Shown one piece after another: positions 398 through 7,257 of a DNA stretch of 59,774 nucleotides. Made by a program: the position numbers and the translations under genes. Numbering within the stretch: the first letter of the stretch is position 1; each line of letters begins with the position of its first letter. Origin of the DNA: an uncultured Gammaproteobacteria bacterium (GTDB taxonomy: Bacteria; Pseudomonadota; Gammaproteobacteria; Nitrosococcales; Methylophagaceae); contig CAJQOM010000014.1 in assembly GCA_905479985.1 (NCBI GenBank), forward strand, positions 1-59,774, written 5' to 3'. Under the pieces are notes generated by a model. It made no database searches, was not told the DNA's origin, and worked only from the letters and a program-made list of their open reading frames with translations.

Positions 398-1825
398 ATG
401 GCACGAACAACAGAATATGATCTTTGCATTATCGGTGGTGGGGCGGCTGGCTTAGTCACGGCGGCTGGTGCTGCTGCATTAGGTGCGAAGGTGATACTGC
501 TTGAGCGTGATAAGTTGGGTGGGGATTGCCTTTATACGGGTTGTGTTCCGAGTAAGGCTTTGATTCATTCGGCTCAAGTTGCCTATGGTGTAACACAAGC
601 ATCGCGTGCTGGGTTGTCAGCGAACCTTGAGCCTATTGACCAAGCGCAGGTGATGGCGCGTGTTGCTCAGGTTATTCAACAGATTGAGCCTAATGATAGC
701 CCGGAGCGGTTTCGTGACTTAGGCGTTGAAGTGTTGTTGGCTCAAGCGCAATTTATTGATGACAATGCATTAACCGCAGGCGATAGAACCATTACGGCAG
801 ATCACTTTGTGATAGCAACAGGAACACGGCCTGCGGTGCCAGATATTCCGGGACTGGAGAGTGTTGATTTTCTGACCAATGAAACCATTTTTAATGTCAC
901 TGCTCCGATTGAACATTTAATTATTATTGGCAGCGGCCCAATTGCCTGTGAAATGGCACAAAGTTTTGTTCGCTTAGGGTCGAAGGTTTCGATAGTCAGT
1001 CACTCTAACTTACTAGCGCGTGAAGATGATGACATGTCGGCAGTGGTGAAGGCACAGTTTGAAGCTGAGAACATTGATTTACATTTAGGCGTTGAGGTTG
1101 AGTTAATCATTAAGACCGACACTGGCTTGGCGGTACAGTTTGATAATGGCGAACATCAGATGATTGAAGGCAGTCATTTATTAATGGCGACGGGTCGTTT
1201 AGCGAACATTGAGAATCTAGGTCTTGAGCAAGCGGGCGTCGATGTTGCGTCGGGGCGTTTGCTACTCGATAAGCGACTGCGAACGACTAATAAGCATATT
1301 TTTGCCTGTGGTGATGTGGCTGGGCCGTATCTCTTTACCCATATGGCTGAACACCAAGCGGGCATTGTCTTGCGTAATACTTTATTTCATTTACCGTTTA
1401 AAGCACAAACGACGGGTATTCCGTGGTGCACTTTTACGTCGCCAGAATTGGCGCGTGTTGGTTTGTCGGAAGCCGAAGCACGTACGCAAGGTATTAGACA
1501 TGCCGTGTATTGTTTTCCTTTTGCTGAGATTGATCGTGCGATTACCGATGACGACACGGCGGGGATGGCTAAAATCATTACGACACCGCGCGGTAAAATA
1601 TTAGGTGCCTGCATTGTTGGGCCACATGCCGGGGAATTGATTGCTGAATATAGTTTGGCGATGTCGGCAGGCTTGTCAGTCTCTGCTTTGAGTAAGACGA
1701 TTCATCTCTACCCCAGTTTGGCTCAGATAAACCGTCGGGTAGCGGATATTCGGCTGAAAGCTTCTTTGACGCCTTTTAAACTAAAGCTAATGAAAAAGCT
1801 GTTTGGTTTGAGGGGTGGGGAATAA
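398..1825 (+). CDS. FAD-dependent pyridine nucleotide-disulfide oxidoreductase (arsenic operon)
   Basis: This 475-residue flavoprotein belongs to the lipoamide dehydrogenase / mercuric reductase family. Seen: an N-terminal FAD-binding GGGAAG (about 13-18), the redox-active disulfide C44/C49 in GGDCLYTGCVPSK, a second nucleotide-binding loop IIGSGPIACE, and the FAD-contacting ACGDVAG. The C-terminal active-site region reads H436-LYPSL but lacks the His-Glu pair of true lipoamide dehydrogenases, and there is no N-terminal heavy-metal domain, so it is neither Lpd nor classical MerA. It probably moves electrons from NAD(P)H to a thiol, disulfide or arsenical. It opens an operon with a VTT-family membrane protein and arsenosugar genes, a partnership common for this subfamily. 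The substrate is unknown. Confidence 0.85.
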   Translation: MARTTEYDLCIIGGGAAGLVTAAGAAALGAKVILLERDKLGGDCLYTGCVPSKALIHSAQVAYGVTQASRAGLSANLEPIDQAQVMARVAQVIQQIEPNDSPERFRDLGVEVLLAQAQFIDDNALTAGDRTITADHFVIATGTRPAVPDIPGLESVDFLTNETIFNVTAPIEHLIIIGSGPIACEMAQSFVRLGSKVSIVSHSNLLAREDDDMSAVVKAQFEAENIDLHLGVEVELIIKTDTGLAVQFDNGEHQMIEGSHLLMATGRLANIENLGLEQAGVDVASGRLLLDKRLRTTNKHIFACGDVAGPYLFTHMAEHQAGIVLRNTLFHLPFKAQTTGIPWCTFTSPELARVGLSEAEARTQGIRHAVYCFPFAEIDRAITDDDTAGMAKIITTPRGKILGACIVGPHAGELIAEYSLAMSAGLSVSALSKTIHLYPSLAQINRRVADIRLKASLTPFKLKLMKKLFGLRGGE

Positions 1826-1826
1826 T

Positions 1827-2513
1827 ATGCGGATGAAGTGGCTATTGTCAGTCATTTTTATTGGCTTAATCGCGAGCTTCTTTATTTTTGGCGGGCCTGA
1901 GTATTTCACCTTAGCCGGCTTTCAAGATTATAAGGCGTCGATGTTGGATTACGTTGACCAGCATTTTGTGGCATCTGTTTTTATTGCCGTGGCGATTTAT
2001 ATTGCTGCAGTGGCACTCAGTTTGCCGGGGGCGGCTTTTTTATCGTTGCTGATGGGGTTTGTGTTTGGCCGTTGGCTAGGTTGGACATTGCTCGTGGTCG
2101 CGGCAACGATAGGCGCTGTGTTGGTGTTTTGGCTTGCCCGTTATTTGTTTTCTGATTGGGCTAAGGCCAAACTGCAAGGTGTGGCGGCGGCGCAAAAAAT
2201 CATTGATACCTTTGAGCGACACGCCTTACATTATTTATTGTTTTTACGGTTGGTGCCGTTGTTTCCATTTTGGTTAGTGAATTTAACGATGGCGATGACG
2301 ACAATCAAAACACGGCAATATGCTATTGGGACTTTTTTAGGTATTCTGCCGGGCAGTTTTGTGTTTGCTAACTTAGGCCAATCTTTAGCGACGATTGAGC
2401 GGCTTGATCAGGTTTTTTCTAGTGAATTATTATTGGCTTTTGGCCTATTAGGACTGTTAATGTTGGTGCCAGTTTTTATGAGCAAGACCAAACAGTCATT
2501 TGAGGATAAGTAA
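1827..2513 (+). CDS. TVP38/TMEM64 (VTT/DedA-like) membrane protein
   Basis: An integral inner-membrane protein of 228 residues with about six hydrophobic segments. The VTT-domain signature is visible: a glycine-rich LSLPGAAF re-entrant segment followed by F-LRLVPLFPFWLVN. I chose the ATG at 1827 because a strong GGTGGGG site lies just upstream; an in-frame GTG at 1815 would overlap the previous gene. Relatives are thought to act as lipid scramblases or proton-coupled transporters, but this subfamily has no assigned substrate. Its one-base spacing after the oxidoreductase implies co-translation, and the two probably act together at the membrane. Confidence 0.82.
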   Translation: MRMKWLLSVIFIGLIASFFIFGGPEYFTLAGFQDYKASMLDYVDQHFVASVFIAVAIYIAAVALSLPGAAFLSLLMGFVFGRWLGWTLLVVAATIGAVLVFWLARYLFSDWAKAKLQGVAAAQKIIDTFERHALHYLLFLRLVPLFPFWLVNLTMAMTTIKTRQYAIGTFLGILPGSFVFANLGQSLATIERLDQVFSSELLLAFGLLGLLMLVPVFMSKTKQSFEDK

Positions 2514-2520
2514 TTAAGTC

Positions 2521-3477
2521 ATGCTAGATTCTGCACCCTTACTGCAACAGAGTGATTTTCCTGCGATTAGTAGAGGAAAGTTAGAGACGGTACAAGTGAA
2601 TTTGGGCTATCTGTGCAATTTGAGCTGTGTGCATTGTCATGTTAATGCTGGACCTAAGCGGACTGAGTTGATGTCTAAAGCCACGATAGACCAAGTGTTG
2701 ACTTATACAGTGGCTTCTGGTGCGACGACATTAGACTTGACGGGCGGGGCGCCAGAAATGAACCCGCATTTTTATTATTGTGTTGCTGAAGCACGCAAGT
2801 TAGGTCTTAAGGTCATTGATCGTTGTAATCTGGTGATATTAGAAGAACCGGGGTATGAAGGCTTAGCGGCTTTTTTGGCTGAGCACCAAGTGACGGTTGT
2901 GGCGTCCTTGCCTTGTTATATTGAAGACAATGTCGATAAGCAACGGGGCAATGGGGTATTTCAACAAAGCTTGGCCGGCTTAAAGCAATTGAATGATTTA
3001 GGCTATGGCGTTGAACACAGTGATTTGATACTCGATTTGGTGTTTAACCCTCAGGGCATCAACCTTCCTCCTGAGCAACAGGCACTTGAGTTGAGTTATA
3101 AAACACATTTATCAACAGAATTTGACGTGGTGTTTAACCAGCTTTATACCATTGCCAATATGCCAATACAGCGCTTTGGTAGTACTTTGATGAGTAAAGG
3201 TTTATTCGATGAGTATATGGGTTTATTGGTGTCGAGTTATAACGCGAGTACATTAGATGATGTGATGTGCCGCCAAATCATCAGTGTGGATTGGCAGGGT
3301 TATGTTTATGATTGTGACTTTAATCAAATGCTCGATTTACCCTTGGCTGACCAAGGCGTTGTGCATATTAGTAAATTGACGGCTAAGACGCTTGAAGGGC
3401 AAACCATTGCGACTCGTCAGCACTGCTATGGTTGTACTGCCGGTCAAGGTAGTAGTTGTGGCGGCGCGTTGACGTAA
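2521..3477 (+). CDS. arsS: Arsenosugar biosynthesis radical SAM protein ArsS
   Basis: A radical SAM enzyme of 318 residues. The [4Fe-4S] cluster motif CxxxCxxC is C32-NLS-C36-VH-C39, followed by the NAGPKRTE stretch typical of the ArsS family. The C-terminal third holds further cysteines, including C302, C305 and C313 in the closing CYGCTAGQGSSC motif, consistent with an auxiliary iron-sulfur cluster. ArsS proteins are linked to adding a deoxyadenosyl or ribosyl moiety to dimethylated arsenic during oxo-arsenosugar formation, and are almost always found next to ArsM, as here. The ATG at 2521 lies seven bases after the previous stop. The family call is firm; the exact reaction is inferred from family knowledge. 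Confidence 0.9.
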   Translation: MLDSAPLLQQSDFPAISRGKLETVQVNLGYLCNLSCVHCHVNAGPKRTELMSKATIDQVLTYTVASGATTLDLTGGAPEMNPHFYYCVAEARKLGLKVIDRCNLVILEEPGYEGLAAFLAEHQVTVVASLPCYIEDNVDKQRGNGVFQQSLAGLKQLNDLGYGVEHSDLILDLVFNPQGINLPPEQQALELSYKTHLSTEFDVVFNQLYTIANMPIQRFGSTLMSKGLFDEYMGLLVSSYNASTLDDVMCRQIISVDWQGYVYDCDFNQMLDLPLADQGVVHISKLTAKTLEGQTIATRQHCYGCTAGQGSSCGGALT

Positions 3478-3501
3478 GACTTTTTAATTTAGGAATAAGT
3501 G

Positions 3502-4623
3502 ATGGCTCTTGAACATAGTGTATTAGATCGGTATTCAGAAGGTGCAGAGTCGCGTCAGGCTGATTTGTGTTGTCCTGTTGATTATGATGCGTCGTTATTA
3601 GCATTGTTACCGCAAGAAATTATTGAAAAAGATTATGGCTGTGGTGATCCGTCTCGCTATGTTCGCGAAGGCGATGTGGTACTGGATTTGGGGTCTGGCT
3701 CGGGCAAAATTTGTTATATGGCTGCACAATTAGTCGGTGAACATGGCCGGGTGATTGGCGTTGATATGAATGATGATATGTTGGTGTTAGCTCGCAAATA
3801 TCAACCTGAAATGGCGGAAAAGCTAGGCAATGATCGGGTTGCGTTTGTGAAAGGGTTAATTGAAGATTTAGCGGTTGATTTAGCCGCCGTTGACGAGCAG
3901 CTTGCTACAACACCAGTGTCAGATGCTGGGGCGTTATTACGTTTGCAAACATGGCAACAAATGCAGACTCAAACAAACCCATTAATTAAAGACGATTCGA
4001 TTGATTTAGTGGTGTCAAATTGCGTGCTTAATCTGGTGCAAGATAGCGATAAAACAAAGATGGTTGAAGAGATCTTTCGGGTGACAAAACCCGGTGGCCG
4101 TGTGGCGATCTCAGATATTATCAGTGATGAATTAGTCCCAGACCATTTAAAAGCAGATCCGACATTATGGAGTGGCTGTATTTCTGGTGCTTTGCAAGAA
4201 CAAGCGATGTTAGATGCTTTCGTTGAAGCTGGATTTGTGGCTGTTGCTTACGATAAATGGGAAGCAGAACCTTGGCAGGTTGTTGAAGGCATTGAGTTCC
4301 GATCAGTGACGATTACAGCGATAAAACCGATGGCAGATCCTTGTTTGGATGTCGGCCATGCCGTGATCTACCGTGGGCCTTATTCAGAAGTGTACGATGA
4401 TGAAGGGCATGTTTATCCACGTGGCCATCGTATTGCGACGTGTGCACGGAGTTATGATTTATTAACCAATGGGGTTTATAAAGATGACTTTATTGGCATT
4501 GCACCAGCAAGTTTAAAACCAGCCGTGAGTTGGTGTGCACCTGCCGGTACATTACGTCCTGCTTCGGAAAGCAAAGGTGCAATACATCAAGGTGGCAGTG
4601 CTTCTGATGGGGCGTGTTGTTAG
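3502..4623 (+). CDS. arsM: Arsenite S-adenosylmethionine methyltransferase ArsM
   Basis: A class I SAM methyltransferase of 373 residues that converts As(III) to mono- and dimethylated arsenic. The SAM-binding motif is LDLGSGSGK (about 61-69). The three conserved arsenic-binding cysteines are present: C47 in DYGCGDP, C174 in SNCVLNL and C226 in SGCISGA. A C-terminal extension of roughly 100 residues ends in Cys-Cys. The ATG at 3502 follows an AGGA site by seven bases and is preferred over the overlapping GTG at 3499. Lying between arsS and the glycosyltransferase, it probably supplies methylated arsenic for arsenosugar assembly as well as detoxification. Confidence 0.92.
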   Translation: MALEHSVLDRYSEGAESRQADLCCPVDYDASLLALLPQEIIEKDYGCGDPSRYVREGDVVLDLGSGSGKICYMAAQLVGEHGRVIGVDMNDDMLVLARKYQPEMAEKLGNDRVAFVKGLIEDLAVDLAAVDEQLATTPVSDAGALLRLQTWQQMQTQTNPLIKDDSIDLVVSNCVLNLVQDSDKTKMVEEIFRVTKPGGRVAISDIISDELVPDHLKADPTLWSGCISGALQEQAMLDAFVEAGFVAVAYDKWEAEPWQVVEGIEFRSVTITAIKPMADPCLDVGHAVIYRGPYSEVYDDEGHVYPRGHRIATCARSYDLLTNGVYKDDFIGIAPASLKPAVSWCAPAGTLRPASESKGAIHQGGSASDGACC

Positions 4624-4629
4624 CTTGTC

Positions 4630-5319
4630 ATGTCAATTAGTATCGTCATTCCTTGTTTAAACGAGGCGAAAGGCATTCGTTTTTTCTTGTCTCGCTTGCA
4701 AACCTTACGTTCTCAATGCGAGTTAGTGTTAGTTGATGGTGGCAGTGATGATGACACTGTGGCCATTGCTGGCCCTTATGTTGATCGTTTGATCGCGTCT
4801 GAATCTGGCCGAGCACTACAAATGAATGCCGGTGCTGATGTTGCCCAGTCTGATGTTCTATTGTTTTTGCATGCGGATACCTTTTTACCTGATGATGCTT
4901 TGGAACAGATTCATATAGCGATTGAGAGCGGTTATCAATGGGGACGGTTTGATGTGCGTTTAGTGGGCAATCACTGTTTGTTACCTTTAATCGCGGGATT
5001 GATGAATTGTCGCTCATCTTTGACCCATATTGTGACGGGAGATCAGGCACTATTTGTTGATAAATCTTTGTTTGTCGAGGTAGGGCAGTATCCCAATATT
5101 GCTTTGATGGAAGACATTGCCCTGTCTAAAACATTGAAAGCAATCACGCCGCCGTATCGTATTCATAGTCGGGTAGAGACTTCTGCAAGACGCTGGATTC
5201 GGTTTGGTGTTATTAAGACGGTGTTATTAATGTGGTGGTGTCGTTTTCAGTATTTTTTGGGTGTTGAACCTCAGTATTTACAGCAGCTTTATCGGCGAGG
5301 TCAATTTTGGATACGGTAA
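4630..5319 (+). CDS. Arsenosugar-type family 2 glycosyltransferase (TIGR04283-like)
   Basis: A GT-A fold family 2 glycosyltransferase of 229 residues. It begins with SIVIPCLNEAKG and continues with LVDGGSDDDT, the nucleotide-sugar binding region; LFLHADT supplies the metal-binding DxD-like element. The length and the FDVRL...GDQ pattern match the small arsenosugar-associated glycosyltransferases. It probably transfers a sugar or sugar-phosphate to or from the arsenic-bearing riboside; the donor is unknown. It starts six bases after arsM, and its last 13 bases overlap the next gene, so translation is probably coupled. Confidence 0.83.
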   Translation: MSISIVIPCLNEAKGIRFFLSRLQTLRSQCELVLVDGGSDDDTVAIAGPYVDRLIASESGRALQMNAGADVAQSDVLLFLHADTFLPDDALEQIHIAIESGYQWGRFDVRLVGNHCLLPLIAGLMNCRSSLTHIVTGDQALFVDKSLFVEVGQYPNIALMEDIALSKTLKAITPPYRIHSRVETSARRWIRFGVIKTVLLMWWCRFQYFLGVEPQYLQQLYRRGQFWIR

Positions 5320-6092
5320 TACGGTTAGGTGTATTTGTCGGAATGTTGATTCTGATGATCGTCTGGGAAATATATGCACCTCGACGGCCACTGCGTTATT
5401 CGCGTTGGCAACGTTGGCCCATTAATATCGGTTTGTCGATGATCACAACATTGCTATTACGATTTAGTATTGGTGGCATTGCTTATTTTTCGGCCCTATT
5501 AGCAGCAGAAATGCAGTTTGGTCTGCTGAATGTGATCAACCTGCCAGTATGGTTATCTGTTGTACTGGCTTTGGTGTTATTTGACTTAGCCGTTTATGGT
5601 CAGCATTTGTTATTACATCGTTGGCCATTGTTATGGCGTTTGCATAAAATTCACCATACTGATTTGGATTTTGATGTGACAACGGCTGTCCGTTTTCACC
5701 CTGTAGAAATTATATTGTCTTTAATTTATAAGGTGATTATCGTCAGCTTATTGGGTGCGCCGGTAGTCGCTGTGCTGATTTTTGAATTGATATTAAGCAC
5801 CAGCGCGTTATTCAATCACAGTAATATTGCGATTCCAGTGCGTTGGGATCGTCGATTACGTTGGCTGCTTGTGACGCCCGATATGCATCGTATTCATCAT
5901 TCAACGGATCAGCGTGAGACCGATAGTAATTTTGGTTTTTCGATTAGTGTTTGGGATCGCGTATTTGGTACTTATACTGCAGAACCGGCAATGGGTCATG
6001 ATGATATGGAGATCGGTTTATCTCAGTATCGGTATAGCCCGACTGTGACGTTAAAAAAATTGTTGTTAATGCCGTTTAAATCACGGGTATGA
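5307..6092 (+). CDS. Fatty acid hydroxylase / sterol desaturase superfamily membrane protein
   Basis: A membrane-bound di-iron oxygenase of 261 residues with four or more hydrophobic segments. The histidine clusters that bind iron are complete: H100-xxx-H104, H113-xx-H116-H117, H131, H171 and H194-xx-H197-H198. The superfamily hydroxylates or desaturates lipids (sterols, fatty acids, carotenoids, alkylglycerols); the substrate here cannot be read from sequence. It starts with TTG inside the end of the glycosyltransferase gene, behind GCGAGG, and its own stop overlaps the next start (ATGA). Embedding of a lipid hydroxylase in an arsenosugar operon is unusual and hints at a lipid-linked product. 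Confidence 0.83.
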   Translation: MDTVIRLGVFVGMLILMIVWEIYAPRRPLRYSRWQRWPINIGLSMITTLLLRFSIGGIAYFSALLAAEMQFGLLNVINLPVWLSVVLALVLFDLAVYGQHLLLHRWPLLWRLHKIHHTDLDFDVTTAVRFHPVEIILSLIYKVIIVSLLGAPVVAVLIFELILSTSALFNHSNIAIPVRWDRRLRWLLVTPDMHRIHHSTDQRETDSNFGFSISVWDRVFGTYTAEPAMGHDDMEIGLSQYRYSPTVTLKKLLLMPFKSRV

Positions 6093-6709
6093 CTTACCGA
6101 TATTCTGATGCCTGCATTGTGGTGTTTTGCAAAGCGCCCATTGTCGGAGAGGTTAAAACGCGGTTGATGCCTGCACTGAGCGCATCGGAAGCGGCACAAG
6201 CACATATCACGCTAACTGAACGCTTATTAACGTGGTTATCTGCTTCAACACTCTGTCCTGTTCATTTATGGTGTAGTCCCGATACAGATCATGCTTTTTT
6301 TCAGCGTTGTGCTACTCAATATGGGGTGTCTTTATACGCTCAGTGTGAGGGTGACTTAGGCGTTAAGATGGATCAGGCTATTCAAACGAGTTTGGATGCG
6401 TTTGACCAGGTGTTATTAGTTGGCTCTGACTGTCCTTCTTTATCTGAACCTGATTTGATTCAGGCTTTATCGGATTTGAACTCTGGTCAAGATGTTGTTT
6501 TAGCGCCGGCGGAAGATGGTGGCTATGTGATGATTGGCTGTAAAGCATCTCAGCCAGCGTTGTTTGCGGACATGGTCTGGGGTACAAATCTGGTTTTTCA
6601 ATCAACTGTGGATAGGTTAAACCGGATGGGATTGCCTTTTTCTACGACACCAATGCAATGGGATGTTGATCGATTTGAAGATTGGCAGCGTTTTTGCGAG
6701 ATGAAATAA
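6089..6709 (+). CDS. DUF2064 / TIGR04282-like arsenosugar-associated glycosyltransferase family protein
   Basis: A 206-residue protein of the DUF2064 family, related to nucleotidyl- and glycosyltransferases such as CofC. Diagnostic stretches are FCKAPIVGEVKTRL near the start, LLVGSDCPSL in the middle and LAPAEDGGYVMIG after it. These small proteins recur in arsenosugar clusters beside the TIGR04283-like family, as here. The likely role is forming or transferring an activated sugar group; the precise reaction is not known to me. It overlaps the preceding gene by four bases and is the last gene of the operon; 41 bases separate it from darP. Confidence 0.83.
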   Translation: MTYRYSDACIVVFCKAPIVGEVKTRLMPALSASEAAQAHITLTERLLTWLSASTLCPVHLWCSPDTDHAFFQRCATQYGVSLYAQCEGDLGVKMDQAIQTSLDAFDQVLLVGSDCPSLSEPDLIQALSDLNSGQDVVLAPAEDGGYVMIGCKASQPALFADMVWGTNLVFQSTVDRLNRMGLPFSTTPMQWDVDRFEDWQRFCEMK

Positions 6710-6750: not shown

Positions 6751-7257
6751 ATGACTGAATTTGATGGTGAAGATGAATTTGATGACGAGAAAAGTAAATC
6801 TCAAATCAAGCGTGAATTACGTGAGTTAAAAGTACTAGGTCAAGCTTTGATTGCTTTGCCTTTGAAAGATATAGAGAAACTTGATTTGCCAGAGCGCGTC
6901 TATGACTCGGTTGTGAAGGCACAATCTATGACACATGGTGCTTTAAAACGTGAAGTTGGCTTTATTGGCCGTTTGATCGCGGATGAAGATCATGCTGTGA
7001 TTGCTGAGAATGTAGCGAAACTTAAGCAAGTTCACCATGGTGACGTAAAGCAATTCCATCAGTTAGAGCAATGGCGTGATGATTTATTGGCGGGTGATGC
7101 TCAAATCATGACATTACTGCATCAGCAATTTGACGAGTTTGATGGTCAGTACGTTCGTCAGTTAGTGAGAAATGCAGCTAAGGAAGTAAGCCAAAGCAAA
7201 GCGCCGAAGTCTTCGCGTTTGTTATTTAAATATCTGCAACAATGCCAAAGCAAATAA
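6751..7257 (+). CDS. darP: Ribosome biogenesis factor DarP (YjgA, DUF615)
   Basis: A small charged alpha-helical protein of 168 residues (the E. coli protein is about 183) that binds precursor 50S subunits late in ribosome assembly. Characteristic stretches are the acidic N-terminus, SQIKRELRELKVLG, the LPLKDIEKLDLPE segment, and a C-terminal SRLLFKYLQ. No signal peptide or membrane segment. It may be read from the arsenic operon promoter or from its own promoter in the 41-base gap; no clear promoter is visible. Its end faces the sensor kinase gene across nine bases. Confidence 0.88.
   Translation: MTEFDGEDEFDDEKSKSQIKRELRELKVLGQALIALPLKDIEKLDLPERVYDSVVKAQSMTHGALKREVGFIGRLIADEDHAVIAENVAKLKQVHHGDVKQFHQLEQWRDDLLAGDAQIMTLLHQQFDEFDGQYVRQLVRNAAKEVSQSKAPKSSRLLFKYLQQCQSK

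Follow-up and report, generated by a model that had tools for sequence, protein, structure and literature searches.

In Synechocystis sp. PCC 6803, the methyltransferase ArsM and the radical S-adenosylmethionine (SAM) enzyme ArsS work together in arsenosugar synthesis (Xue et al., 2019, as cited in PMC8552651). Here we analyze a stretch of 59,774 nucleotides (the window), namely contig C14 (CAJQOM010000014.1, assembly GCA_905479985.1) of an uncultured gammaproteobacterium of the family Methylophagaceae, whose genome of 2.2 Mb is distributed over 46 contigs. The window opens with an arsenosugar operon of seven genes that includes, between two glycosyltransferase-family genes, a gene for a membrane hydroxylase of the fatty acid hydroxylase superfamily (FAH; PF04116), and our principal finding is that FAH is a real and recurrent partner of arsenosugar clusters. 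To our knowledge, the enzymes for making arsenolipids and for the later arsenosugar steps are not settled. The core of such clusters is established, but a hydroxylase that recurs as their partner seems to be undescribed in the literature searched (with few subscription papers), which yielded no report of arsenosugars together with a sterol desaturase or a fatty acid hydroxylase.

The seven plus-strand genes are nearly contiguous at the start of the window (398-6709), in the following order:

398..1825, + strand: flavin adenine dinucleotide (FAD) pyridine nucleotide-disulfide oxidoreductase, class I (disulfide-reductase-like), CLYTGC motif (PF07992 193.7 bits, PF02852)
1827..2513, + strand: VTT-domain (TVP38/DedA-type) membrane protein (PF09335 83.4 bits, cut-off 33.9)
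2521..3477, + strand: ArsS arsenosugar radical SAM enzyme, CNLSCVHC motif and DUF3641 domain (TIGR04167 456.7 bits, cut-off 300)
3502..4623, + strand: ArsM-like As(III) SAM methyltransferase (NF040538 355.2 bits, cut-off 500; PF13847 96.7 bits)
4630..5319, + strand: TIGR04283 arsenosugar-associated GT2 glycosyltransferase (256.6 bits, cut-off 182)
5307..6092, + strand: FAH, PF04116 membrane di-iron hydroxylase (predicted), TTG start (106.5 bits, cut-off 31)
6089..6709, + strand: TIGR04282 (DUF2064/CofC-like) protein of nucleotide-sugar/nucleotidyl transferase fold (187.5 bits, cut-off 134)

Intergenic distances along this order are 1, 7, 24, 6, -13 and -4 bases, so that the layout of small gaps or overlaps proposed in the original prediction is borne out, with every open reading frame (ORF) in place on the plus strand; the proposed ArsS, both glycosyltransferase-family proteins, the VTT protein and the membrane hydroxylase likewise passed their family models above cut-off. 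Several starts were refined: to ATG 1827 for the VTT gene (1 base past the FAD-gene stop at 1825), to ATG 3502 for ArsM, and to ATG 6089 for the TIGR04282 gene, which overlaps FAH by 4 bases. FAH itself is taken to start at TTG 5307 (GAGG at 5297-5300), overlapping the GT2 gene by 13 bases, because its homologues at loci L096 and L139 have ATG at the matching position.

Like the Synechocystis pair, the window combines an above-cut-off ArsS with an adjoining ArsM, here accompanied by both NCBIfam arsenosugar-associated glycosyltransferase families; unlike that pair, it adds the PF04116 hydroxylase between the transferase genes as well as the VTT and FAD proteins, and its ArsM falls below the arsenosugar ArsM model. 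The placement of ArsM beside a radical SAM enzyme also recalls the arsinothricin cluster arsQML of Burkholderia gladioli, as described in PMC8552651, and the arsinothricin ArsM model gives the window ArsM its highest score; however, the radical SAM enzyme of the window belongs to the ArsS family, and transferases plus hydroxylase take the place of ArsQ and ArsL. With regard to FAH, superfamily, histidine pattern and membrane type are shared with OlsE, a lipid hydroxylase whose target is the ornithine head group (PMC3972451), but the window gene sits among arsenosugar genes and not among ornithine lipid genes. Fold and histidine-box type are shared with the fatty acid 2-hydroxylase domain of Scs7p (4zr0, 4zr1), although identity to the window FAH is only 18-19%. 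The substrate of Scs7p is the acyl chain of ceramide.

The claim that the histidine clusters of the hydroxylase are intact was borne out by comparison with its homologues. Histidines 100, 104, 113, 116, 117, 131, 171, 194, 197 and 198 are invariant across 27 aligned FAHs, and the clusters HX3H, HX2HH and HX2HH (H100/104, H113/116/117 and H194/197/198) are invariant in these 27 and also in 58 rows; the protein is an intact di-iron hydroxylase of the PF04116 superfamily by its motifs, with activity predicted. Its closest curated model is that of OlsE (NF052566), in which membership was rejected, the score being 91 bits where the cut-off is 475. An AlphaFold2 model (predicted local distance difference test score 93.4, predicted template modelling score 0.90) aligned in VIA-align with the Scs7p hydroxylase domain (4zr0, 4zr1; Z 6.7, 184 residues, root-mean-square deviation 4.9) and with no other listed structure; a search of solved structures with the FAH profile gave no match at E ≤ 1, and Foldseek with the model gave nothing significant (best 4zr1, E 1.1). 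This likeness suits the PF04116 superfamily and points to no substrate. Similarly, specificity positions distinguishing the clade of the window FAH from an ArsS-poor clade (see below) came to three weak columns only (106, 118 and 212), insufficient for assigning a substrate.

Within the genus of the window, the seven genes recur in identical order in 11 of the 20 fetched loci. The other nine comprise seven partial operons on short contigs or at contig ends (one operon, that of genome G003, being split over L087 and L088) and two loci, L074 (genome G021) and L075 (G004), with another ArsS cluster that lacks FAH, both genomes carrying a 48-49% identical FAH elsewhere. Among the 29 genus genomes, which are partly incomplete (from 67%), ArsS is present in 20; the operon-type FAH is found in 17 of these 20 (counting G019, where a contig end truncates it) vs. 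none of the nine ArsS-negative genomes (Fisher p 2e-5), two of which have distant FAH homologues only.

The same association extends across the class, for which we sampled 369 gammaproteobacterial genomes (183 with ArsS), opened 80 ArsS loci outside the genus, and ran over all genomes a profile built from 27 ArsS-linked FAHs. At E ≤ 1e-90, FAH was detected in 131/183 ArsS-positive vs. 20/186 ArsS-negative genomes, for an odds ratio of 21, which, like the other class odds ratios, was computed without a species tree and is thus uncorrected for kinship; at E ≤ 1e-30 the corresponding numbers of genomes are 149 and 35. Removal of the 20 genomes that supplied query rows left 111/163 vs. 20/186 (odds ratio 17.7), while the control gene KatG was evenly distributed (66/183 vs. 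59/186, odds ratio 1.2, p 0.38). Counted by family, ArsS occurs in 99, FAH in 87 and both in 78. Physical linkage could be assessed for the matches listed (111 FAH rows from genomes whose ArsS position is also listed): among these, FAH and ArsS are at most 12.2 kb apart in 36 genomes from 25 families, three of the genomes belonging to the genus of the window, in 36/36 cases on the same strand, and the other nine same-contig pairs lie 121 kb to 2.9 Mb apart, seven of them on opposite strands.

A close view of the 80 class loci places FAH near ArsS in 20, always on the ArsS strand (20/20; this count includes L168, with an FAH that sits on a long branch in a different subfamily), alongside GT2 in 53, TIGR04282 in 52, ArsM in 25, VTT in 20 and the FAD protein in 17. 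An unsupervised clustering of ArsS neighbors ranked FAH directly behind ArsS, the glycosyltransferases, VTT/FAD and ArsM, with 30 loci (19 outside the genus) and 31/31 ORFs on the ArsS strand, whereas the cluster ranked next, found at 21 loci of which 18 are outside the genus, is mixed in strand (13/28). Gene orders vary and include GT2-FAH-TIGR04282, FAH-VTT-ArsS, FAH-ArsS and ArsS-glycosyltransferases-FAH-VTT. In a phylum-wide draw of 279 genomes, FAH at E ≤ 1e-60 was present in 86/113 ArsS-positive vs. 37/166 ArsS-negative genomes (odds ratio 11), much of this signal coming from a single family (f201). The original prediction had made its case depend on co-occurrence of the hydroxylase with arsS outside this strain, and such co-occurrence proved strong in the genus, in the class and beyond. 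As a separate observation, at L272 (genome G160, in which ArsS was not detected) FAH directly adjoins an ArsM-like gene (507 bits).

A tree of 141 FAH rows, obtained by a quick method, with 63 of its 136 inner branches open and without 32 of the 65 named loci that carry the label "other", places the window FAH in a clade of 24 rows (Shimodaira-Hasegawa-like approximate likelihood ratio test 98). This clade is composed of 13 genus rows, eight named rows near a glycosyltransferase, L096, L139 and the named row L172; both glycosyltransferase genes flank FAH in 20 of the 24, one in three (L169, L173 and L176) and none in one (L172). Its nine named rows are from Methylococcales (Methylobacter, Methyloglobulus and kin), except L169, which belongs to genus genome G002, and the GT2-FAH-TIGR04282 arrangement is common to Methylobacter luteus and Methyloglobulus. 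A whole-genome check detected ArsS in 8/10 genomes with FAH of the clade type (L169-L176, L226 and L239, of which L169 is again genus genome G002) vs. 3/20 genomes with other FAHs. Most FAH-VTT pairs and most ArsS-positive genomes fall in a second large clade, and a third clade is poor in ArsS. Branches starred as supported force at least six changes of the label "near ArsS", and therefore FAH entered ArsS clusters on more than one occasion.

The VTT gene, too, recurs with arsenosugar clusters, in places fused to the FAD protein or to rhodanese, and in many genomes FAH is followed by VTT (often rhodanese-bearing), with a divergent gene for an ArsR-rhodanese regulator upstream. VTT adjoins FAH in 10/20 of the near-ArsS FAHs of the class loci and in 16 of the first 17 regions of a further fetched set; for FAHs distant from ArsS in ArsS-positive genomes the proportion is 9/20, vs. 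3/23 in ArsS-negative genomes (p 0.04). In the regulator, cysteine conservation is confined to two residues, both in the rhodanese loop CRGPYC, which are present in 54/54 homologues. Examples of the regulator gene are found at L130:892-1599 and L261:3311-4039, about 0.85 kb from FAH, and it stands beside FAH-VTT-rhodanese pairs both with and without ArsS.

To the gene content, gene order, conservation, co-inheritance, intact active site and fold observed in this analysis we add a proposed pathway, whose parts differ in their strength. We are highly confident that FAH is functionally tied to the ArsS pathway, and regard it as rather likely that its substrate is a membrane lipid of one kind or another. 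The best overall explanation, which we favor tentatively and with slightly less than even confidence, is an arsenosugar operon with FAH as a true pathway partner acting on a lipid-held arsenosugar or on its acceptor. Following this scheme, ArsM would methylate arsenite to dimethylarsinous acid, ArsS would add the 5'-deoxyadenosyl group of SAM (steps demonstrated for the Synechocystis enzymes), and the base would presumably be lost via a housekeeping phosphorylase or nucleosidase; the CofC-like TIGR04282 protein may activate the arsenoribose or help its transfer, and GT2 would place it on an acceptor, most likely a membrane lipid. Working on the cytoplasmic side, FAH would then hydroxylate either the putative lipid-linked arsenosugar or the lipid that accepts it, the VTT protein might move or laterally handle that lipid, and the FAD disulfide reductase could keep the arsenic thiol partners reduced.

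A lipid acceptor for GT2, with FAH acting there, is proposed because the FAH gene is wedged between, and overlaps, both transferase genes and because enzymes of the superfamily such as OlsE have membrane lipids, head groups included, as their substrates. Thus, the overlaps suggest that FAH acts on the product or acceptor of the two transferases, and its nature as a membrane enzyme suggests that its substrate is lipid-held. A lipid-linked arsenical would fit the chemistry of the PF04116 family. That the operon yields an arsenic-bearing lipid is, nevertheless, something we hold only as a possibility, on the near side of doubt, and the most specific version, in which GT2 loads 5-dimethylarsinoyl-ribose on a membrane lipid, FAH hydroxylates the arsenolipid and VTT moves it across or along the membrane, we consider doubtful. 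The original prediction is upheld in its link between hydroxylase and arsenosugar genes; its lipid-linked product is a possibility that the sequence evidence does not tell from other uses of FAH.

A number of observations weigh against FAH as a pathway partner acting on lipid-held arsenosugar or acceptor. Arsenosugar genes often occur without FAH, which is missing from 52/183 ArsS-positive class genomes at E ≤ 1e-90 (34 at 1e-30), and 3/20 clusters with FAH by ArsS have no glycosyltransferase near. Conversely, FAH is carried by the aforementioned 20/186 (class) and 37/166 (phylum draw) ArsS-negative genomes, ArsS is found in only 3/17 FAH-positive genomes of the gammaproteobacterial part of the draw, and, among the best 80 named FAH loci, 76 have no ArsS (> 150 bits) in a flank of up to 8 kb (four do, and 14 are labelled near ArsS or a glycosyltransferase, L178 weakly), with loci from Rhodobacteraceae and other Alphaproteobacteria having mostly neither nearby. 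FAH as an arsenic-exclusive family was rejected, since its relatives are present in many ArsS-less bacteria. No lipid enzyme was seen within the operon, and the rhodanese-loop cysteines of the regulator are as compatible with sulfur as with arsenic as its signal. Owing to the ArsS-less FAHs and the rhodanese regulator, a nearly as good explanation is that FAH is a general membrane-lipid hydroxylase (acting, e.g., on amino- or phospholipids) that shields the envelope during metalloid or reactive-sulfur stress, with shared regulation as its only tie to the arsenosugar genes and with an arsenic-free product. This alternative, which we judge possible if somewhat doubtful, also draws on OlsE, an ornithine-lipid hydroxylase, as the nearest curated model, and on units of FAH, VTT-rhodanese and ArsR-rhodanese found apart from ArsS; yet in the clade of the window, both in the genus and in Methylococcales, FAH is wedged with overlaps between the two arsenosugar transferase genes, and the FAH-VTT pair is commoner in ArsS-positive genomes.

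A lipid-free alternative, in which FAH hydroxylates a small organoarsenical directly (at an As-methyl group or a sugar carbon) and thereby demethylates it or yields an oxidized arsenosugar, would accommodate the clusters with no glycosyltransferase near, the FAH beside ArsM in the ArsS-less genome described above, and five genomes (G268, G395, G152, G196 and G396) in which, among the matches listed, FAH lies 51-181 bases from ArsS. We consider it unlikely: the PF04116 enzymes that we know of take hydrophobic or membrane-held substrates, and the literature searched offered no precedent for one acting on a methylarsenical. As for FAH being a passenger gene placed by chance and without a pathway role, its absence from part of the ArsS-positive class genomes would agree with such an origin, but FAH and ArsS have been joined repeatedly, in different gene orders, across 25 families, always on the ArsS strand and with the active site intact. 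This reading was rejected as highly improbable on the same-strand proximity, the label changes forced by the tree and the genome-wide association relative to the KatG control.

Overall, FAH is inherited together with ArsS in Proteobacteria, and in a supported clade to which the named methanotroph Methylobacter luteus belongs it lies wedged between the two transferases, which are themselves unassigned; the gene is open to deletion and its product to standard arsenic speciation. If the most specific version given above, with GT2 loading and FAH hydroxylating an arsenolipid, is true, no enzyme before FAH would have been assigned to the making of bacterial arsenolipids, and ArsS clusters would have recruited it on several occasions.

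Concerning the surroundings of the operon, positions 1-130 of the window hold the end of an ORF (last residues RQLNERPRKTLEYETP; no Pfam match), whose C-terminal residues we take to resemble an IS30-type transposase. The contig starts inside this ORF, and therefore the upstream neighbors of the operon in this strain are not visible; at four genus loci (L072, L077, L078 and L083) two further same-strand genes lie directly upstream of the FAD gene, the pair at L078 being a SulP/STAS anion transporter and a universal stress protein, which possibly extend the operon. On the downstream side, a DarP (YjgA) gene begins at 6751, 41 bases past the TIGR04282 gene.

Among the core proteins other than FAH, ArsS has the CX3CX2C motif as CNLSCVHC. 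The window ArsM is below every NCBIfam equivalog cut-off (NF040538 355.2/500, NF008823 184.5/263, NF038099 124.7/400), and carries cysteines in CC, YGCG, SNCV and SGCIS, presumably those of ArsM enzymes. The weak PDB kin of GT2 are lipid-linked or GalT1 glycosyltransferases, and the TIGR04282 protein matches 3cgx, a putative nucleotide-diphospho-sugar transferase (E 1.2e-19). The FAD protein scores 495.7 bits with NF004991, below the cut-off of 620, and has cysteines only at positions 10, 44, 49, 184, 304, 344, 372 and 405. Mercuric reductase MerA requires a C-terminal cysteine pair; this assignment was rejected for the FAD gene, in which the C-terminal CC is absent and the TIGR02053 score is 352.8 vs. 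a cut-off of 454.45. VTT is fused to an FAD disulfide oxidoreductase in nine ORFs, seven of them at loci fetched around ArsS (L092, L090, L166, L102, L075, L074 and L122) and two at loci fetched around FAH (L281 and L178), with Pfam confirming two of the nine; such fusions argue for VTT and the FAD protein as a natural pair.

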